A stretch of 64,000 nucleotides of DNA from Timema cristinae (Eukaryota > Arthropoda > Insecta > Phasmatodea > Timematidae), in assembly GCA_039000515.1 (NCBI GenBank), contig JBCFYV010000012.1, forward strand, positions 15,130,290-15,194,289. The letters are read 5' to 3'. Position numbers and translations under genes: made by a program. Shown here piece after piece: positions 7,311 through 57,275 of this stretch. Below the pieces are notes generated by a model. That model made no database searches. It saw only the letters and a program-made list of their open reading frames with translations, and had not been told where the DNA came from. Position 1 is the first letter of the stretch. Each line of letters starts with the position of its first letter.

Positions 7311-9764
7311 ATGCCCAGAAACTACAAACGAACAACCGAAAGGGCACAATGGACGGCGAATGATTTATCAGCAGCTATTACTGACGTGAAAAATGGGAAA
7401 TCTATCAGGAAAGCTGCCAAGGATCACGGCATATTGTAATGTAACTGATTTGCCCCTGAAAAGTATGTGAAAGCATTGACAAGAATATCGTCCTAATTTT
7501 ATAAACGTATCTTATTTCATTTAAATTATATAGTATATTAAATGGCACTTAAAGCACTTCTTCTTCTAAGAAGGCAAAAGCCACTGATCAGTGACGTCAC
7601 GCACGTGACACCAGTCAAGTCAGTTTGACAATATATATAATTTTAATAATAACTTCCTCTTCTCGATGGTTCGAAGAGAGATTTTAAAATGTAACTTGAG
7701 TCATTTTCCGGCTCTCGAAGCTTCGAGTAAAACAGAGATGTTTTTGTCTTGTATTTTGTTTTTCTAAACTAAACCTTCTCGAAGCTTCTATGACCAAGGA
7801 ATATATACAAGGGATGGTGCAACATAAAGTTAGTGTTCAGTGGTTAGTTGGGAGTTGGGAGTTGGGAGAGAACTCACTTGGCGTCTAGCAACACCTGTCC
7901 GCGCTAGCCCGCGTATATATTTCGATATGATCTATTTTCGCATTAATTAAACTGATTCAGAAATAAAAAACATATCAAAATGAAAAGTGTATTAATCATA
8001 ATTCTTCAATAGGCACCCATCGCGGTAACGTAAATCCAGAACGTTACAATACCCTTCAGTACCCTGCAGGAAAGAATTAAAATTTCAAAGATGAGTGCCC
8101 AAGCCTAGGAAGAAAAGCAGTGTTCACCCGTGACCAAGAAGCGAACATAGTTGAACACTTAAAGATTATGTCAAATATGTTTTACGAGTTGACACTATAC
8201 AATTGAGAAAACTTGTTTTCGAGTATGCAGAAAAATTTAATATCCACACAGATTCAACAAAGCAAGTAGGTTGGCCGGCAAGGACTGGTTAGAGGGATTT
8301 TTACGACGAAATCCACGTATTTCAGCTCGAAAACCTGAAGCAACAAGCCTAAACAGACTAAAAGGCTTTAACAAGCAGGAGGTGACCAAATTTTTTGATA
8401 ATCTTGAAAATGTTATGGAGAAATTTAAGTTCACTCCAAACAAAATTTTCAACATGGATGAAACCGGGATAGCGACTGTTCATGAGACAAATAAAATCTT
8501 AGCACTGAAGGGACAGAAAAGAATTGGTGCAGCAACATCTGGAGAAAGAGGACAAACCACTACAGTTATTTGTGCTTTTAATGCAGCAGGTAACTATATT
8601 CCCCCTGTTTTCATCTATGCCAGGCAGCGAATGGCTCCTACTTTAAAAGTGAATGGACCACCTAATGCTCTGTATTTCTGCTCAAAAAATGGCTGGACTA
8701 ATGAAGGACTGTTTGTCCAATGGCTACAACATTAAAAAAAATACTCTACCCCAAATGAGGAGGAGCCTGTCTTACTAATAATAGATAACCACGGCAGTCA
8801 CATAACCAAAGAAGCTTATGACTTCTGTAAAGAAAACTTCATAACACTGTTGTCCTTGCCACCTCACTCCTCCCACCACCTACAAACGCTAGATGTAATT
8901 TTCTATGGCCCACTGAAGAAAGCCTACAACAAAGAGTGTGATCTTTAAATGAAGACCCATGCAAACGAAAGAATTACAGTTTACAAAGTTGCAGAACTTT
9001 TCAACAAGGCATACACTCATGTTGCAACACTTGCTAAAGGCATATCTGGATTTTCGTGTACTGGGATATTTCCGATGAACCCAAATGTGTTCTCCGATGA
9101 AGATTTCCCACTAGAAATAGAATCTACAGAGGCGCTCACAGACTCACCTTCTCGGAGTTCACAGGATGTAACGCTTCAGGATCTTTCTCCCTTGCCAGTT
9201 TTGAGTCCGCCAGGACCAAGAAGTATGCACTCAGAAATTTGGACAGCAACGCCTAAAAAAGCTGTGCTCGAAGAAAAAAAAAGAAATAAAGAAGAGCGTT
9301 TGCAAAAGAAGAACAACCAAAGAGAAAATTCGAAGAGAAAAGACGCTGTCTTTGTTAGACCACAGAAGAGGAAATTATCATTCTCTTCATCCAGTTCTGA
9401 AGGAAATGAGGTCAATTTGTGCCAAGAGTCAGGTGAAAGTGACTAGTAGGAGACAGATGAGAGCGAAAGTGAAGATACTTTGTCAAAAGAGTTTACCCTA
9501 GAAATAAAGCCACATAATATTCTTGTAGGCGATTATTTCTTAGTGAGAGTTTCAAATGAAAGATCGGTGAAAAACTTTCTTTTCCAGGCCATTGAAATAG
9601 GCAAAAATTCCATTAAAGTTAAGTTCATGCGTGAATACAGGGGTCAATGGGATACCTATGTTTTCCCTGAAGTTGAAGATACAAGCTATGTCATTCCAGA
9701 AGACATTGTTGGGAAACTTACCAAATTTCAGCAACTGAGATATGGCAAAGTTAAATTTGAGTAA
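7311..9764 (+). pseudogene. pogo/Tigger transposase, split by an LTR and broken by stops
   Basis: The enzyme would cut and paste the element at TA sites. The start is taken at ATG 7311, beginning MPRNYKRTTERAQW, an N-terminal pipsqueak-type helix-turn-helix. The frame runs to codon 41 (AAKDHGI), is cut by a solo LTR (7435-8048) and resumes at 8052 with PFSTLQERI. A CENP-B-like DNA-binding region follows (LGRKAVFTRDQEANIVEHLK at 8105; DWLEGFLRRNP at 8281). The DDE_1 catalytic core shows NMDETG, then LIIDNHGSH, then TLDVIFYGPLK, so all three acidic positions are D. A C-terminal domain (GDYFLVRVSNE to stop at 9762) is typical of pogo-like transposases. Damage: frame changes near 8104, 8190 and 8265, and in-frame stops at 8733, 8946, 9444 and 9447. 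From 8271 to 9764 the frame is constant, so later decay is mostly by point mutation. Confidence 0.9.
7435..8048. mobile_element. 614-bp solo LTR inserted in the pogo transposase gene
   Basis: The insert begins TGTAATGTAAC and ends GAACGTTACA, the TG...CA termini of retroviral-type LTRs, with short inverted ends (TGTAAYGT). It is flanked by 4-bp repeats ATAT (7431-7434) and ATAC (8049-8052), a target duplication with one change. Removing it restores the reading frame exactly (AAKDHGI to PFSTLQERI), which confirms the boundaries. Inside are a GGAATATATACAAGGG TATA-like region and an AATAAA-like signal (about 7961). No internal retrotransposon sequence remains, as expected after recombination between two LTRs. 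Gypsy or BEL/Pao is likely from the terminus; the family is not determined. Confidence 0.82.
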
Positions 9765-35773: not shown

Positions 35774-36070
35774 ACACTTACTACGACTTTATTGAAACAC
35801 ATACATTTGAAACACATACATATTAATGCAATTACATTAATCCTAACTCTATGCTCCAATACCTATATTTTAACTTGGAGCTTATTATTCTCTATAAACT
35901 AAACTATTAAGCAAAAAGGACATATAATTGTAGGCAAGAGTTAAGTTTATAGAGAATAATAAGCTCCAAGTTAAAATATAGGTATTGGAGCATAGAGTTA
36001 GGATTAATGTAATTGCATTAATATGTATGTGTTTCAAATGTATGTGTTTCAATAAAGTCGTAGTAAGTGT
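35774..36070. repeat. perfect 127-bp inverted repeat with a 43-bp spacer
   Basis: The left arm (35774-35900) starts ACACTTACTACGACTTTATT and ends TCTCTATAAACT. The right arm (35944-36070) is its exact reverse complement base for base. The spacer is 35901-35943. The left arm contains a short internal duplication of GAAACACATACAT. No frame and no obvious target duplication were seen. Confidence 0.95.
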
Positions 36071-36221
36071 CAACAAAAAACAGAAAAAAAGTATTTCTAC
36101 TACAAGACAATTTCAAACATAAACACTAGGTGTTTTCTTTTTGATGCTGTTACTGCCGTTTTAATTGGCTAGATAGAGCCTCTCATCGCATTCTCATTGG
36201 CTGATAATCTCAAATCAAAGG

Positions 36222-36450
36222 GTTGTTTATGCTCAAGTCCAAAGGCTGTGTATGTCAGGCCCAAGGGTTGTTGACGCCCAAAACCAAGGTTTGTGTATGC
36301 CAAGTCCAAGAGTTGTGTATGTTCAGGACCAAGGGTTGTCTTTGCTCAAGTCCAAGAGTTGTGTGTGTTCAGGACCAAGGGTTGTCTTTGCTCAAGTCCA
36401 AGAGTTGTGTGTGTTCAGGTCCAAGGGTTGTCTTTGCTCAAGTCCAAAGG
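36222..36450 (+). repeat. 23-bp minisatellite, about ten units
   Basis: Two alternating 23-bp subunits, CAAGTCCAAGAGTTGTGTGT-like and CAGGACCAAGGGTTGTCTTT-like, form a 46-bp higher-order unit. The last three 46-bp units are nearly identical and the first is more diverged. The 23-bp length is not a multiple of three, so the overlapping open frames here are by-products. Confidence 0.9.
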
Positions 36451-47220: not shown

Positions 47221-49325
47221 AGCGTTTCTAATCCCAAAGTTTTTAAATTATTGCTCAAAGAAGGAATCATGCAACTTATAAGATAGAATTTACTATGATG
47301 AAAACTTTGGAGTTGATAAGAGATGTAGCTTCAAAATCAAATGCAATGAAATGTAATTATTTCTGTTTTAAAATTAGCCACAAGGAATATTTGTATTATT
47401 TAAGAAAACAAATTAAAATTTAAGGTAAGGCCCCTTTGTAAACGATGTTAGTGGTTTTATTATTAGGAGCCGAGCATTTATAGATTACTGTTAAGACTAT
47501 CATGGAAACACACTACATATAGTTGTCTTTCTGAGAAGGACTTGTCATGGAGCTCAACGTTATACACCTTTAGGGTTTGTCCTTGAGCTCTGTTGATGCT
47601 CATCGCATGGCAAACCTTGATAGAAAATAGCATGCATTTAAACTGTAAGGGCAGGTTTGATGGAATTCAGGTACTCTTGATATCAAATTGACTAAGGGAA
47701 CTAAAAAATTAGTAACGGTAGTTCCTATGGACATATAGGTGCGAGATGGCATTTCAAACTAGTCTAAAATACCGTAGTTAATTTTACTAGCCGATTAATT
47801 TTTGGGGTAAGAATAACTTGCTCCTGTAATCAGGAAAGAGGCTTGTTTTGCCAAAGACGTATATCGGAATGAATAAAATGGAATGATTCCTGAATATCCT
47901 TGAATATGATGCATATTTGGGAGTTATTCAAGGAAACCTTGTTTTCGTGCTTTGCAAAGACTCTAATACCGAATTTTATCAAGACGTACAGTTACTGGTA
48001 TGACTTCAGGAAAAAATACTGATTCAAATATTGACCAACAGCTGCGTGAAAATGTATTAATGTATAATATAATGTAATGTATTAATGTATAATATAATGT
48101 AAAATGTATATATATTACACTTCCCATACAAATATTTGAATCGATCGTCTCCATACATGCAGCAAAAAATTATCCTAAAAGATTTAAAGAGCTACGTTGA
48201 TGGGCATTATGGATATCACAAATACCGTAGACGGCATCTCGACGCTGAAGTGCTGCTCGGCCAAGATCCGTTCTTGAGCGTTGGACACACCTTCGGCTGG
48301 TCCCACAAAGCCCTACCACGTTAAGAGTATTGGTTTCCTGAATTAATGTGGAGATATGCTGTGTCACTAAATCCATGTATGTACGTAAATCATTTAGGGG
48401 AGTGATATAAGGCTACATTTAGTAAAAACTTAAACAATAAGGTGGAAAAATTTCAGTTGGAATTATTCAGGGTGTTATATATTCAGCTTTCAATATAGAA
48501 AACAAACAATGGGTATATTTTCTTATAAGTATTATCACTAACATCACCAACAACCTATGCGACACACCAATAATAATCTTTCTTCAAATGTTTCACTGTA
48601 GCACCTTTTGCGAAGACGCTTACTTGTAAAGAGGTTGCTTCATATAATGTTTGAAAAATTAAGACCTTCCAACGCTGAGGGCAAAGTGTTTCTGTTGAGG
48701 AAGCCCCAGAATAAATGAATAGTAATTATTTTATTTGGAGATAAGCCACCACGTACCCGATAAACACAGTGTGTTATTATGTGAGAATATGGCTCCTTGT
48801 CGTCAAAGATCCAACTTCATATGTGAAAAATTATTTTCAATGAATGACGTAACCTACGCATTTTACCAATTAGTTGGCATAGCAATGGGACAAAGCCCCT
48901 TTGCGTTGATCTTATTTCTCACTCAAATATTTGCTCTCCACCACATTAAAAAAATTCACGTGACATATCCTCTAGCAATTTGCTCACCCACAGGGAACGC
49001 ATTTAGGAAGCTGTTGAACATAGAATCAGAACAGATCAATAACTATAAAATTTGGACTTCAATGAAGATATTTTTAATGTGGGCTGGGCTGAATCCAATC
49101 AAATTTTAAAGTATCTCTAGGATAATAATATGAAATTCCTGGTCTTCTACCTGAAAATTTGTTTGGATTTACGTTCTATAGTTACTACTTGGGAGAGACT
49201 ACAAACGACCATATATTTCTATTACAAATTCTGAATATGAACAAACCTCTATTAAACACAGCTCATCTTATCGTGTAGATAAATGTATTTTAGAATACTG
49301 GAAATCTAGTAGGAAAAGTTTTATT
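47221..49325. other. gene-free DNA left of the piggyBac element
   Basis: Two frames were weighed: 48136-48376 on both strands, and 48735-49109 on the plus strand (124 codons with a hydrophobic middle). Neither shows a recognisable family. A short direct duplication of TTAATGTATAATATAATGTA occurs at 48057-48105. Confidence 0.4.
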
Positions 49326-49329
49326 TTAA

Positions 49330-49345
49330 CCTTCTTATATTCGCG
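49330..49345 (+). repeat. outer part of the left piggyBac TIR
   Basis: CCTTCTTATATTCGCG, directly after TTAA. It matches the right end CCTTCGTATGCTCACG at 12 of 16 positions. Confidence 0.82.
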
Positions 49346-52300
49346 CCCAACGGCATCACACATATACTCGTGCCCAAATGCATCAAACATATACTCGTGC
49401 CCAACGGCATCACACATTTACTCGTGCCCAACTGCATCAAACATATACTCGTGCCCAATGCATCACACATATACTTGTGCCCAATGGCATCACACATATA
49501 TTCGTGCACAAAGACATCACACATATATCGCGCCCAAAGACATCACACATATACTCGTGCCCAACTGCATCAAACATATACTCGCACACAACGCATCACA
49601 ACATATACTCGTGCCCAACGGCATCACACATATACTCGCGTCCAACTGCATTAAACATATACTCGCACGAAACGGCATCACACACATACTCGTGCCCAAC
49701 GGCATCAACATATACTCGCACGCAACGGCATCACACATATACTCGTGCCCAACTGCATCAAACCTATACTCGCACGCAACGGCATCATACATATACTCGC
49801 GCCCAAACACATCACACATATACTCGTGCCCAAAGATATCACACATATACTCGGCCCAACTGCATCAAACATATACTCGCGCGCAACGGCATCACACACA
49901 TACTCGTGCCCAACGGCATCATACATATACTCGCGCCCAAAGACATCACACATATACTCGTGCCCAACTGCATCAAACATATATTCGAGAGCAACGGCAT
50001 CATACATATATACTCGTGCCAAGGATATCACACATATACTCGTGCCCAACTGCATCACACATATACTCGTGCCAACGGCATCACACATATACTCGTGCCC
50101 AACGGCATCACACATATACTCGTGCCCAACGACATCACACATATACTCTGCCCAACGGCATCAACATATACTCGCGCCCAAGACATCACACATATACTCG
50201 TGCCCAACTGCATCACAACATATATCGTCCCACAAGACATCACACATATACTCGTGCCCAATGGATATCACACATATACTCGTGCCCAACGCATCAACAT
50301 ATACTCGTGACCAAAGGCATATCACACATATACTCGTGCCCAACGCATCACACATATACTCGGCCAACGGCATCACACACATATACTCGTGCCCAACGGC
50401 ATCACAATATACTGCGCCCAAAGACATCACACATATACTCGTGCCCAACGGCATCACACATATACTCGTGCCCAACGGCATCACACATATACTCGTGCCC
50501 AAGCATATCACACATATACTCGCGCCCAAAGACATCACAAATATACTCCGCGCAAGGAATCACACAATTACTCGTGCCCAATGGCATAACACATATACTC
50601 GTGCCCAAACGGCATCACACATATACTCGTGCCCAACGGCATCACAATATACTCGTGCCAACGGCATCACACATATACTCGTGCCCAACGGCATCACACA
50701 TATACTCTGCCCAACGCATACACATATACTCGTGCCAAAGGAATCACACATATATTCGTGCCCAACGGCATCACACATATACTCGTGCCCAACGGCATCA
50801 CACATATACTCGTGCCTAACTGCATCACACATATACTCGCGCCCAAAGACATCACACATATACTCGCGCCAAGCATCACACATATACTCGTGCCCAAGGC
50901 ATACACATATACTCGTGCCCAACGGCATCACACATATACTCGTGCCCAAAGGCATCAACATATATAAGCTCGCACTTGCCAAGGCATCACAATATACTCG
51001 TGCCCAAGGCATCACACATATCTCGGCCCAAGGCATCACACATATACTCGTGCCCAACGGCATCACACATATACTCGTGCCCAACGGCATCACACATATA
51101 CTCGTGCCCAACGCATCACACATATACTCGCGCCCAAAGGACATCACACATATACTCGTGCCAACGGCATCACACATATACTCATCACACATATACTCGT
51201 GCCCAACGCATCACACATATACTCGCGCCCAAAGACATCACACATATACTCGCGCCCAAAGACATCACAATATCTCCGCGCATGGCATCACACACATACT
51301 CGTGCCCATCATACTGGCCCTCACACATATACTCGTGCCCAACGCATCACACATATACTCGTGCCAACGGCATCACACATATATCGTGCCCAACGGCATC
51401 AACATTATCGTGCCCAACGGCATCACACATTTACTCATGCCCAACGGCATCAACATTACTCGCGCCCAAAGACATCACACATATATTCGCGCCAACGGCA
51501 TCACACATATACTCGTGCCCAACGGCATCACACATATACTCGTGCCTAACTGCATCACAATATACTCGCGCCCAAAGACATCAAACATATACTCGTACGC
51601 AACGGCATCACACATATACTCGTGCCCAATGGCATCACACATACTCGCGCCCACCATGCATCAAACATATACTCGCGCCCAAAGACATCACACATATACT
51701 CGCGCCCAAAGATATCACACATATACTCGCGCCCAAGACATCACTCATATACTCGCGCCCAAGACATCACACATATACTCGCGCCCAAAGACATCAAACA
51801 TATACTCGTGCCAACGGCATCACACATATATTCGTCCCAAAGATATCACACCATATACTCGTGCCCAACGGCATCACACATATACTCGCGCGCAACGCAT
51901 CACACATATACTCGCGCCCAACGGCATCACACATATACTCGTGCCCAAAGACATCACACATATACTCGTGCCCAACGGCATCACACAAATATTCGCGCCC
52001 AACTGCATCACACATATATTCGCGCCCAACTGCATCAAACATATACTCGCGCGCAACGGCATCACACACATATTCGTACCCAACGACATCACACATATAC
52101 TCGTGCCCAACGGCATCACACATATACTCACGCGCAACGGCATCACACATATACTCGTGCCCAATGGCATCACACATATACTCGCGCCAACGGCATCACA
52201 CACATATTCGTGCCAACGGCATCACACATATACTCGCGCGCAACGGCATCACACACATATACTCGTGCCCAACGGCATCACACATATACTCGCGCGCAAC

Positions 52301-53146
52301 GGCATCACACATATTCGTGCCCAACAGCATCACACAAAATCTGCGCCCAAAGACATCACACATATACTCGTGCCCAACGGCATCACACATATACTCGTGC
52401 CCAACGACATCACACATATACTCGCGCGCAACGGCATCACACATATACTCGCGCCCAACGGCATCACACATATACTCGTGCCCAACGACATCACACACAT
52501 ATTCGTGCCCAACGGCATCACACATATACTCGCGCCCAAAGATATCACACATATACTTGAGCCCAATGTATCAATCTATATTCGCACGCAAAGGCATCAT
52601 ACATATATTCGCGCCCAAGGACATCACACATATACTCGTGCCAAACGGCATCACACACATACTCGTGCCCAACGGCATCACAGATATACTCGCGCCCAAC
52701 GCATCACACATATACTCGCGCGCAACGGCATCACACACATATACTCGTATCCAACGGCATCACACATATACTTGTGCCCAACGACATCACACATATACTC
52801 GTGCCCAACGGCATCACAGATATATCGTGCCCAACGCATCACACATATACTCGCGCGCAACGGCATAAACATATACTCGAGCCCAAACTGTATCACACAT
52901 ATTCTCGTGCCCAACGGCATCACACATATACTCGCGCCCAACGGACTCACACATATACTCGCGCGCAACGAATCACCACATATCGTATCCAACGGCATCA
53001 CACATATACTCGTGCCCAACTCCATCACACATATACTCGCGCGCAACGCATCACACATATACTCGCGTGCAACGGCATCACACATATACTCGTGCCCAAC
53101 GCATCACACATATATTCGCGCCCAACTGCATCAAACACATACTCGC
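49346..53146. repeat. 27-bp minisatellite, about 140 units, inside the piggyBac TIR
   Basis: The commonest unit is TATACTCGTGCCCAACGGCA followed by TCACACA. Variants occur in linked groups: TCGCGCCCAAAGACATCACA, CAACTGCATCAAACA, and TCGCGCGCAACGGC. Units with CTGCATCAAACA tend to be followed by a TCGCGCGC or TCGCACGC unit, which indicates higher-order structure. One-base losses in C and G runs (GCCAACGG, CCAACGCATC) are frequent, mainly about 50.1-51.7 kb. Since 27 is a multiple of three and the unit lacks stops in five frames, long frames reading ITHILVPNG, SHIYSCPTA, HHTYTRAQR, MCDAVGHEY or CVMPLGTSI appear. They are not genes: both strands and several frames are equally open, and there is no other protein feature. 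Confidence 0.95.
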
Positions 53147-53165
53147 GTAATGTGTCTCAGACCGA
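53138..53165 (+). repeat. inner part of the left piggyBac TIR, displaced by the array
   Basis: CATACTCGCGTAATGTGTCT then CAGACCGA. It aligns with the right TIR (GTATGCTCACGCATTGGTCT, CTCAGACCGA), including the exact CTCAGACCGA. It overlaps the last array unit at ACTCGCG. Confidence 0.8.
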
Positions 53166-53442
53166 GATTTGATCTCGTCTGTATTATTTTAGTTATATAC
53201 TTTTTATGCATTATTGGGATTTATTATATTGAAGGAGGTGTAATTGAATAAAAAAACAGAAAAAATATTAAAACTTTAACATTGTTTGGTAGAAACAGAC
53301 TTTTAACTCATTCTCTTAAAATAGAACATATTTTTTCACTCTAACTTTAATAAACGTTTTCATGTGTTAATTATAAAAAAACTCTGAAATCTAATAAATG
53401 AAAAAAACCAGGAATAATAAAATATTATAAAAATAAGAATTA

Positions 53443-55163
53443 ATCATTATTAGGGTTGTTTGTGTAGCAATCAGAACTGCGTGTTCGAGACAAAAATATT
53501 GTTTGCAGTTTATGCAGTTATATCGTGTATTTCGGTTTGTTTTCTTACGAACAGAATGAACAACAACCTGCCTGATGATTATCTGATGATGTAGGTTCTG
53601 GATTATCAAGTTTTCATATTTCTAAGAGCCTCTGTCTCGGTGTTCTTGGCAAACTTGAAATTAATTCCCGCCTTTTTAGTTCTTAGTTTTAGTTTAGTTT
53701 TTAGTTTTAGTTTTTAAGTTCTTGTGAAAGCGTCTCTAGAAACTTATTGCGGCTTGTTTTTATGTTTAAATTGTTAAGACCATATATTATATAAGAATTA
53801 ATCCACGCAACATCCATAAAGCTGTAAAAAATAACCATAGGCTACTGATTAGTTCCTCTAGTGCAGTCATAGGTACCACATATTTTGTCTACAGTGTCAA
53901 CACCACCTTTTGTAGCATTGTAGTCCATAATTATCTATGGTTTTCCAGTTCATTTATTATTCATTTGTGCATCATCGTGCATACTAGAAACAAGTAGAAC
54001 ATTTTTCTTTTTCTTTGACACATATGAAACTAAGGTGCATTTATTTCGTTGTCCAAATAAACTTGAATTTTCTGTACGGCCTTTTACATCAGTAAATTCC
54101 ATTGTCAGTTCCTTTTTATTCTTGAGAATTGTGCCTTTAAAAATTAGCTTGTGATCCCACATCAAACTTTCGACTAAAGGAATGCTTGTGAAAAAATTAT
54201 CACATGTTATATTTAGACCAGATCGATCGATTACGCCACAAAGATGATTGACTAATGCTTGTGGCTCAGTGTCGACTTTATATGGCCCTTCATGTTGTTT
54301 TCCTACATAAACTTCCAGACTCAACGTATAAAACATTTTGGCATAGGTCAGTGCATATATTTTTATGCCATATTTGTTTGGTTTCAAAGGTATCTACTGA
54401 TGGAAGCTACAGCGGCCTCTGAATGCTTCCAACTTCTAATCGATTGTTACAAATTCAGGGGGGCTGAAATGTTTTTTTTTTAAGATGACACAATGTTTCA
54501 AATAGGTATCTTATTGGAGCCAACTTGTTGACTGAAGCACGTTGAGTTCTTGTTTCTTGTCGTCAAACCTTAAACATTTAAATAGAAGGTAAAATTGACT
54601 CCAGCTCATTGTCAATCGGAAAATTTCTGGAGATGAACCATCAGTCCTGAATATATCTTTAGCATTCAGCCGACCATTTCTCCTACCACCAGCAAATAAA
54701 AGAAGGCCAAGAAATGCTCGAATTTCCTCTTCATCAGTAAGTCTACAGTCCCTTGCTCGTTTGAATGCAGGTGAAAGTCGTTCAATGTGTTGGTTAGTAT
54801 ACATCGTAATAAGATTGATTACTGTATCAGAAAAAAATTGTTTCCAAATATCACCTGGATCTTTTGTATTCCTTGCTTCTCTCTTTACGCCAGGAAGTTG
54901 CATAACAATATTTTGAGACCGTGTTCTAACAGTAGACGATGGACTATTTTTGTTCCATCTAGTCGTTTTGTCTTTTCCGACATAGTAGTTTACAGACTTT
55001 GCAAAACCTCTTCAAATTCGTTTGACGAATCACCCTCCTGCTCAGTGTCGGTATTTTTCTCTTGGACTTCTAGAGCGTCCTCCGCCTCACTGTCACTCTT
55101 GTCAACGTAATTTTAATCTGAATCTTCACATTCTAACAGCGCCTTTATTCTTTCTTCCTCCAT
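53443..55163 (-). pseudogene. piggyBac transposase, inactivated
   Basis: The enzyme would excise and reinsert the element at TTAA without a scar. The start is ATG at 55163 (MEEERIKALLECEDSD), followed by an acidic N-terminus typical of the family. Conserved landmarks follow in order: RTRSQNIVMQLPGVKREA (about 54935-54880), EEEIRAFLGLLLFAGGRRNG, SWSQFYLLFKCLRFDD, NITCDNFFTSIPLVESL (first catalytic D), LLVSSMHDDAQ (second), MDYNATKGGVDTVDKICGTY (third) and PMVIFYSFMDVAWINSYIIY. A C-terminal cysteine-rich domain closes it (CSFCSVRKKTNRNTRYNCIN, then CLEHAVL). Damage: a stop at codon 17 (TAA), a frameshift before RTRSQN, another after QSTSWLQ near 54510, stops at 53950 and shortly beyond, and a frameshift near the end. 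All three catalytic D residues survive, so decay is moderate. Confidence 0.92.
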
Positions 55164-55487
55164 TGTTGTGACAAAAATGGCTAAAAACCAAGAAAACAGT
55201 TCTCAAATAATGTAATACAATAAACTCAATAAGTATTATACACCACTATAATAAATAATACATTTTATTGAGTAACGTTATAAAATAAAAAAATGTTTCT
55301 TACCTAAAATAGTAACACTTAGACTCGCGTCGGTCTCACGGGCCGATAACCGTAATAAAGTGTCTCACGTCCACTCGGCACCAATGCGCGCGCCGCACTA
55401 AACAATGTCTAACAACAAATTAAGAAGCTACTAAAAACCGAAAGTCCCAGTGATGTTAATTTTCGAGAAAAAAACGAATTATTGATT

Positions 55488-55524
55488 TGTCGGTCTGAGA
55501 GACCAATGCGTGAGCATACGAAGG
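55488..55524 (-). repeat. right piggyBac TIR
   Basis: TGTCGGTCTGAGAGACCAAT then GCGTGAGCATACGAAGG, ending at TTAA. This end is intact and serves as reference for the split left end. A related word, GCGTCGGTCTCACGG, occurs about 180 bp inward (55327-55341) and may be a subterminal repeat. Confidence 0.85.
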
Positions 55525-55528
55525 TTAA

Positions 55529-57275
55529 GATATACTCGCGGGTAAAGGAAATACATTTATAATTAATGTATTCTTGGCTAAGCTCGAGCTTGAGGGTTGT
55601 CATACCTTGAAGTGACTTAATCAGGTATAGCCGTTAATTTGATAGAAGAGGGAAGAACAGTGAATGTAACATTTAAATTATTATTACATTTTTCTAATGG
55701 ACAAATTGAGGTGCGCAAAGTATCGAGGCAAAGATTCACATCAACATTACTACAGCAAAATTCCTTATATAAGGTCACATAAGACTTCAATTTAAAATAC
55801 GTATATAGCTCTCAGAGATCTCAGAAGCAAAATGGTGCTCATTGGAAGCGTCACCGTACTATTCTAAGTAAACTTCCAACAAACTCTACCGGTGATTTTG
55901 AGAATCACTAGAACTAACAACGTCAACGTCTGCCTGAAAAGTTCTTAAATATTCTCAGACGTTTTGAACCTTCCCGGTCAACCAACATATGCAGCCACCT
56001 GTGTGAAGACAAAAATATACTTGTGTGTCGGTTTATTGCTGAAACTCGGCAAAGGAGTCTTCGCAGATCACGAAGGAAGAGTGTCCCTGAATAACTCCCA
56101 TATATACGCCATTGTCAATATTATCAAGGAACTAGTTCATTTGATTAACCCTCCTTTACGTCTTAGGTGATACCAGCCTCTTTTGTTGTTCCAGGAGCAA
56201 GCTATTCTAGTTCAAAAAATGAATCGTACAGTAAAATTAATGACTGCATTTTAGACTAGTTTGAAGCGGCATACCACACTTACATATCCATAGGCACTAC
56301 CCTTACCTATTTTTTAATTCCCTTAGTCCATTTCCCTTGGCTTCCCCATCTACTCTCTTCAATTAAAATTTAAACACCCATCATTTTACTGCGTAGTTTG
56401 AACCCGCCTAAACAGTGCAATGGGTAAATAGTTAAACAGGTTAACAGTATGCAAAACTATATAACATAGGTCTCTGTCATTTCATGTTACTATACTAAAA
56501 GTTGTGTCTCGGTACCAAGAATACTCATAATTCCATCAGACCTGCTCTAACAGTTTAAATGCATGCAATTTCATATCAAGGTATGCTAAGCAATGACCAT
56601 CAACACATCACAAGTACAAACACTGAAGGTGACGGGCGTCAAATCTCCCTGGCAATTGTTTTTCATATGGACAACTTTACGTGGTGTGTTCCATGATAGT
56701 TCTAACACCAATCTATAAATTATTTCTCCTTATTTTAAAACCACTAACGTTGTTTATAAAGAAGTATTGTCTTAAATTGTGTTACTTTGTTTACTTCAAT
56801 TAATACAGATAACTTAGTCTCTGTGCGGCTAATCTTAAAACAGAATTAACTACACAACATTGATTTCGCTAAGTGATTTTTTATCTGTGCGGAAAATTAA
56901 AAACTAGGGAGCTATAAAGGCTATTGTTTTAATCAACATGTTTTAAAAAATGGCATTAACATGAGCGAAGCTATTTATTTTATAAGTATTAGAGATGTAA
57001 ATTTGTATTCCTTCAATTCCTAAACTAACACCTTATTGAAGTCCCATAAAATTCCTAACACCTTCAATCTTAGCTATGCTCAAAATAAGATAGCTTTAAT
57101 ATGTAAATGTAAGATATTCCTTAGCATAATATCTTGTTAGGGAGCTTTACCTTTAATAACCACATGTTGGTCAGTGGTTACAACTTTTCTTTCGTCTCCT
57201 CCAACTACTCAAAATCAATTTCTGGAGTTCAATAAATACTCTCTTTGAGTAAAAAAAATAATATATTAGGTTTTT
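55529..57275. other. gene-free DNA right of the piggyBac element
   Basis: No supported feature except that TATACTCGCG occurs 3 bp beyond the right TTAA (55532-55541). Short frames at 55409 and 55964 carry no motifs. Confidence 0.45.

Follow-up and report, generated by a model that had tools for sequence, protein, structure and literature searches.

How does the end of a DNA transposon come to be divided by several kilobases of minisatellite? We addressed this question at a piggyBac element in a 64,000-nucleotide stretch of the Timema cristinae genome (the window). A sequence-only reading of the window had placed the outer 16 bp of the left terminal inverted repeat (TIR) at a TTAA and the remainder of that end about 3.8 kb later, with some 140 copies of a 27-bp unit in between, and had explained the array as amplification of a segment of the TIR itself. 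The description held. The tip occupies 49330-49345 and the end resumes at 53148 with TAATGTGTCTCAGACCGAG, and the intervening array was measured at 142.3 copies (82% matches) by TRF and 143 full units by cyclic alignment. The explanation required comparison with other copies of the family.

The window element and its array

The element spans 6195 bp at window positions 49330-55524, with TTAA on both sides. Its features, and the basis of each, are as follows.

48700..49325, + strand: flank, a piece of the dispersed repeat that hosts the insertion (genome matches)
49326..49329, + strand: TTAA target site, array side (sequence; single-TTAA empty site in L038-L040)
49330..49345, + strand: array-side end, outer 16-bp tip, bp 1-16 (similar tip in other copies)
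49336..53137, + strand: array of 143 full 27-bp units (TRF; cyclic alignment)
53138..53147, + strand: final 10-bp box, corresponding to bp 34-43 of the unexpanded end (cyclic alignment)
53148..53190, + strand: inner part of the array-side end, beginning TGTCTCAGACCGAGATTTGATCTCG (sequence)
53391..55163, - strand: broken piggyBac transposase gene, limits approximate (PF13843 pieces, reading frames)
55490..55524, - strand: opposite end, bp 1-35; carries one box and lacks the 17-bp segment (sequence)
55525..55528, + strand: TTAA target site, opposite side (sequence; repeat-copy alignment)

TIRs of the piggyBac superfamily begin CC[C/T]T (PMC2872659), and both ends of the window element begin CCTT. 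The TTAA target duplication and a PF13843 transposase, its gene broken, also place the element in this superfamily. The transposase gene is interrupted by stops and frameshifts, and its 3' end faces the array side. PF13843 was matched by pieces at 54511-55011 (E 1.3e-16) and 53950-54393 (E 6.7e-16), and by a weak third piece (E 0.019). A protein search with the joined pieces gave 748 relatives. The best named relatives by E-value, among the best 120 of the 748, were from Episyrphus balteatus (62%) and Amyelois transitella (59%), PGBD4-like, and the top relative (P0001, 73%) matched the solved piggyBac transposase 6x67 with an E-value of 3.9e-106. The window copy is an old element with a broken transposase.

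The left flank had at least 50 matches in the genome including itself, the others at no more than 80% identity; among the at least 50 matches listed in this search, none represented a second contig for the window locus. When the flanks were joined by a single TTAA, they aligned across the junction to all three repeat copies tried (L038, L039 and L040; 68-75% identity), indicating precise insertion at a TTAA within a dispersed repeat. The opposite end is intact and unexpanded, and a palindrome within it, considered as a CRD site, was no better than shuffled sequence (p 0.27). An exact copy of the 10-bp box, TATACTCGCG, lies directly outside the opposite TTAA at 55531-55540, probably by chance. 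We rejected it as a second end or footprint, since L038-L040 align through this spot with other letters, which identifies it as flanking repeat DNA.

Each array unit consists of a 10-bp TIR box (TATAYTCGYG) followed by a 17-bp tail, with consensus CCCAACGGCATCACACA. Cyclic alignment placed the 143 full units and the final 10-bp box at 49336-53147, with a mean identity to consensus of 0.908; this copy number is approximate, gap positions being denser in the middle of the array. Bp 7-16 of the tip double as the opening 10 bp of unit 1, and both edges of the array join unique sequence in register with the transposon end. Substitutions were about threefold more frequent at the edges (27-33 per 11-12 units) than in the middle (9). 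More variation at the edges of an array than in its middle is the expectation under unequal exchange.

Units up to 12 and up to 24 positions apart were more alike than in shuffled order (none of 150 shuffles was as low). Similarity within 4 units did not reach significance (p 0.053), and neither nearest neighbours (p 0.29 and 0.52) nor a lag test for multi-unit blocks (p 0.29 and 0.76) departed from shuffled order in the window array. An 80-bp higher-order unit suggested by TRF was rejected, as similarity at lag 3 did not exceed that in shuffled arrays (p 0.5). Gap positions numbered 7-21 per 12 units in mid-array versus 2-6 elsewhere, with a single unit supplying 12 of the 21. Across window positions 50000-51500 their density was two to three times that of the remaining array, and substitutions were fewer. 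We suspect that the mid-array excess of gaps reflects assembly error, possibly that of an unpolished assembly, and some of the difference between units may have the same source.

Elsewhere in the window, positions 35774-36070 form a near-perfect hairpin with two 135-nt arms, 99% complementary and 27 nt apart, which is either a short foldback element or a palindromic sequencing artefact. A separate 23/46-bp minisatellite (36209-36447) begins about 140 bp after it. Two frames at 8271-9446 resemble a remnant of a pogo-type transposase; the first matches Pfam DDE_1 (E 1e-4) and the second matches nothing in Pfam. Neither the Rfam nor the tRNA scan gave a hit in the 64-kb window.

Single units at other ends of the family

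We searched the 1.29-Gb genome for the 27-bp unit (A unit) and for other parts of the array-side end; the family copies found represent a lower bound, from a possibly incomplete list. At up to 3 mismatches the A unit was found at 79 places (control, 0): 69 in the window array and 10 in other left ends. Every one of these 10 ends carried the unit once, at bp 7-33, beginning 10 bases past the first T of the TTAA. The sequence-only reading had proposed checking other left TIRs in the same genome for the unit, and had held that left TIRs without similarity to it, or the same array away from any piggyBac end, would count against a TIR origin. Neither was found at this threshold. No A unit lay outside the window array and the 10 left ends, and all 79 places fell in ends of the family. 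There was no free-standing array of the kind expected of a transposon-independent satellite or minisatellite, and a large expansion of the A unit was present only in the window. Viral contigs scanned with the 27-bp unit and with the TIR gave no match.

The tip pattern at up to 2 mismatches occurred at 47 places, versus 35 for its reversed control, and 12 places had 0-1 mismatch; matches with 2 mismatches were accepted only with other support. The inner part of the array-side end was found at 8 places (control, 0). The family loci that we read represent at least six insertion events, of which the window is event 1; events 2, 5 and 6 are unexpanded, and events 1, 3 and 4 carry arrays. The other events are as follows.

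Event 2, C7605:73582429-73585032: unexpanded end
Event 3, C3:78464-100644 and C3:10649189-10652359: arrays
Event 4, C420 and C2286: arrays; 7.9 kb in common at 97.7%, about 1.3 kb of which is array
Event 5, C926, C1164 and C1243: unexpanded end; 95.6-99.7% over about 9.9 kb
Event 6, C2250 and C4966: unexpanded end; 97.2% over 2.3 kb, surroundings rearranged

The two copies of event 3 have short stretches of both flanks in common (170 bp at 92% and 164 bp at 90%). The copy at C3:10649189-10652359 has a tip with 2 mismatches; its unit, inner part and opposite end support it. In the other, about 16 kb separates the opposite end from the array (C3:78464-94588; L009 and L010), versus a body of about 2.4 kb in the window element, and this copy therefore probably contains nested insertions. 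The event 2 copy has a stretch of about 200 bp of body (L019, 1382-1587) that has no match to the window element and is probably a nested insert. The event 4 copies lack the inner part of the end, and the opposite end was not seen in about 10 kb from each contig.

The unexpanded array-side end begins with 6 bp, a 10-bp box and 17 bp, followed by a second box at bp 34-43 and then an inner site. The second box followed the first by 27 bp in all six unexpanded array-side ends read, from three insertions (events 2, 5 and 6); in L015 (C1164) the downstream part is shorter, a few bases having been deleted at the second box. From bp 34 onwards the array-side end matches bp 7-35 of the opposite end, the second box being followed by sequence like opposite-end bp 17-35. 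All 12 comparisons (3 array-side by 4 opposite ends) were better than all 4000 shuffles, with 20-25 identical bases. The four opposite ends read, also from three insertions, were all single, without a 17-bp insertion or offset repeat. The layout of the unexpanded ends identifies the 27-bp unit of the window as bp 7-33 of the array-side end.

Ends of another TTAA family (L023, L024 at 191-1291, and L025) have tips like CCTTCTTAGACTGGCG. The L024 element looks complete at 1.1 kb and has a repeat motif at bp 17-35 of one end that is displaced at the other; by eye, its ends resemble the same asymmetric layout.

The tail of the unit had been aligned to the right TIR in the sequence-only reading, and this alignment did not stand. 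We compared the 17-bp tail with left, right and internal sequences in 12 tail-target pairs, each with mononucleotide and dinucleotide shuffles. The p values ranged from 0.03 to 0.95. Three of the 24 were below 0.05, all for the right TIR, and none remained so after allowing for the number of tests; we therefore rejected the tail as a diverged right TIR. Against the opposite ends of the family, the 17-bp segment gave p values of 0.0085-0.32, with 4 of 12 below 0.05, all involving L019. From its position in the other copies, the 17-bp part of the unit is the segment normally found at bp 17-33 of the array-side end. The proposal of tandem amplification from the element's own TIR is thus retained, with the unit present in 10 of 10 other left ends, and the supposed likeness to the right TIR is not.

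Taken together, these observations suggest that a short direct repeat, normally built into the 3'-side end of this piggyBac family, very probably underwent runaway expansion at one insertion to give the array. Two 10-bp boxes in direct orientation would allow out-of-register pairing, and since they lie 27 bp apart, each event of replication slippage or unequal exchange would add one 27-bp unit (bp 7-33). Once several units were present, further exchanges could have carried the array to about 143. We infer this molecular mechanism, and likewise that the array has no selected function.

A ready-made minisatellite might instead have been captured into the end, as filler DNA at a break or by gene conversion, its TIR-like box arising by chance. 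This would account for a 17-bp tail without clear similarity to the other end and for the lack of clean intermediates between 1 and 143 units: the ends with one, two or few units that had been suggested as a check were found as single-unit ends, and no family copy located had a few clean A units. However, the whole 27-bp unit, tail included, sits at the same place in each of the 10 other left ends, and these single-unit ends argue strongly against capture. No A-unit array was found at another locus with up to 3 mismatches allowed, and both edges join the end in register, which also speaks against capture; we regard it as extremely improbable.

Related arrays of a 24-bp unit

In events 3 and 4, one A unit is followed by an array of a 24-bp unit (B unit) with consensus TACTCGCGCACGGTGTCTCACAYA or close to it. 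The B unit combines the second box with the inner site. By cyclic alignment, the two C3 copies have 253 and 41 full rows, and C420 and C2286 have 135 and 53; the first row of each, the A unit, is not part of the 24-bp array, nor are the last rows of C420 and C2286. The 24-bp module is thus present in roughly 40, 50, 130 and 250 units at the four loci. A genome search with the B unit gave 210 places (control, 0), and the approximately 100 of these that were listed all lay in the four loci of events 3 and 4. The 17-bp tail showed some similarity to the 24-bp array consensus (p 0.0055) and gave p values of 0.03, 0.06, 0.11 and 0.21 against four single ends; on this comparison, a remote common origin of tail and module is possible.

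C420 and C2286 represent one insertion and their last units are nearly identical, but their arrays are about 3.2 and 1.2 kb long. The arrays of the two C3 copies are about 6.1 and 1.0 kb. In both pairs, which are alleles or duplications, array length has changed and the rest is alike. Lag tests found near-identical runs of 11 units at lag 12 in C420 and of 10 units at lag 67 in the C3:78k copy, a recurrence unreached in 200 and 60 shuffles respectively; the same test for multi-unit blocks gave p 1.0 in C2286 and in the C3:10.65M copy. After its first A unit, the C3:78k copy has a degraded A-like second unit, TACTCGCGTCCGGCATCACTC, below the 3-mismatch cut-off, which appears to be the nearest thing to an intermediate. 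The occurrence of the same B unit at the different sites of the two events could mean that an already-expanded end transposed, or the two arrays could have arisen independently.

These loci also bear on whether the window array owes most of its length to misassembly of a much shorter repeat. C2286 was noisier than C420 at the same locus (23 versus 4 deletion positions, with about 4 each in edge rows outside the array), which is consistent with such an artefact, as is the denser spacing of gaps in the middle of the window array. However, substitutions among the window units fall in regional clusters, unique sequence is joined at both edges, and two other insertions also carry arrays. We consider an artefact on this scale very improbable, and retain expansion of the built-in repeat as the origin of the array.

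Possible function and comparison with known systems

Compatible with that expansion, the repeats could have been selected as extra transposase-binding sites that raise or restrict transposition. The sequence-only reading had proposed a decoy or a recombination hotspot, and both roles are conjectural. In Trichoplusia ni piggyBac, a third site added to the left end (LEtandem) increased integration about two-fold (PMC7351741), and an internal LE site restricts piggyBat (PMC11707139). Extra sites therefore matter in the piggyBac superfamily, and by analogy the 143 sites of the window could help or hinder. Expansion is also not confined to one insertion, and it has affected both modules. Sequence conservation gave a mixed picture. 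Counting all positions of the window array, the box was no more conserved than the tail (0.069 and 0.068 substitutions per site per unit). However, 55 of the 99 box substitutions fell at one C/T position, and when this was excluded the box rate was about 0.034, roughly half that of the tail, so that the 10-bp box may be under weak constraint. Against selection, the window element is broken, and the two B-array insertions with their common 24-bp unit could represent one origin followed by transposition. On balance we think selection for extra sites unlikely.

A broader and still doubtful proposal, which we rate only marginally higher, is that the 27-bp repeat of piggyBac right ends is both an inherited weak point and a control knob, with the number of boxes tuning synapsis so that a few raise activity and hundreds silence it. 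If this were so, expanded ends would be natural self-restricted or dead-end forms, and the presence of B arrays at two insertion sites would imply that an end had gone on to transpose after partial expansion. Whichever holds, natural ends with 1, about 143 (27-bp) and about 40-250 (24-bp) units would allow a direct comparison of whether repetition of transposase sites favours or impedes a piggyBac.

In T. ni piggyBac the right end (RE) lies on the 3' side of the gene, and by this map the window array is on the corresponding side. The T. ni RE63 has a 17-bp insertion, and its bp 34-63 are almost identical to LE bp 7-35 (PMC7351741). The unexpanded Timema end agrees with it in having 17 bp inserted at bp 17-33 and an offset repeat of about 27 bp at one end only, a likeness to the asymmetric LE35/RE63 pair that is one of spacing, with the letters uncompared; T. 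ni RE63 has one such repeat, whereas bp 7-33 are repeated about 143 times in the window (PMC7351741). In T. ni, insertion of 5 bp in the RE reduced transposition by about half, and the authors of the structure described the insertion and duplication as a puzzling arrangement (PMC7351741).

Tandem repeats at or near transposon ends are known from other elements, TIRs being listed among the sources of tandem repeats in a review (PMC9659126). In Tetris/TIR-220 of Drosophila virilis, repeats have been attributed to duplication of part of the TIR, with variable allelic numbers and arrays of kilobase size, as in Timema. Tetris is a foldback element and suggested Mutator relative, with 220-bp units in long TIRs, long satellite arrays and no transposase found; the Timema family differs in its 27- and 24-bp units, its confinement to one piggyBac end and the absence of free arrays among those seen (PMC4079207). 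Galileo, of the P superfamily, likewise has internal tandem repeats that vary TIR length and are proposed secondary binding sites, although subfamily F of D. mojavensis has none, two or three units of about 210 bp in long TIRs, unlike the window (PMC3573991). Nor does the Timema family have the long repeated TIRs on both ends of foldback or Galileo-type elements, as only the 3'-side end is expanded and the four opposite ends are single. Pokey, a piggyBac-superfamily element of Daphnia, also has one-sided repeats that vary in number; unlike those of the window, they originate from a host rDNA spacer, occur in 2-5 copies (about 200 bp and about 50 bp) and lie 5' of the gene (PMC3849761). In a Xenopus piggyBac-like MITE, a tandem array similarly formed from part of a TTAA element, in that case a partial internal sequence of the MITE (Hikosaka and Kawahara 2004, cited in PMC2872659).

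We found no report of expansion of the RE-type 27-bp repeat in a piggyBac among open-access titles and abstract openings, a scope outside which most subscription literature lies. Since TIR-derived tandem repeats were already known from Tetris and Galileo, the Timema array is a variant on a known theme; within the literature so covered, what is new is the expansion of the piggyBac RE-type repeat. It makes the birth of a minisatellite visible alongside a one-copy ancestor in the same genome, and indicates that the 17-bp/27-bp spacing of T. ni recurs in another piggyBac family, where long minisatellites arose from it.
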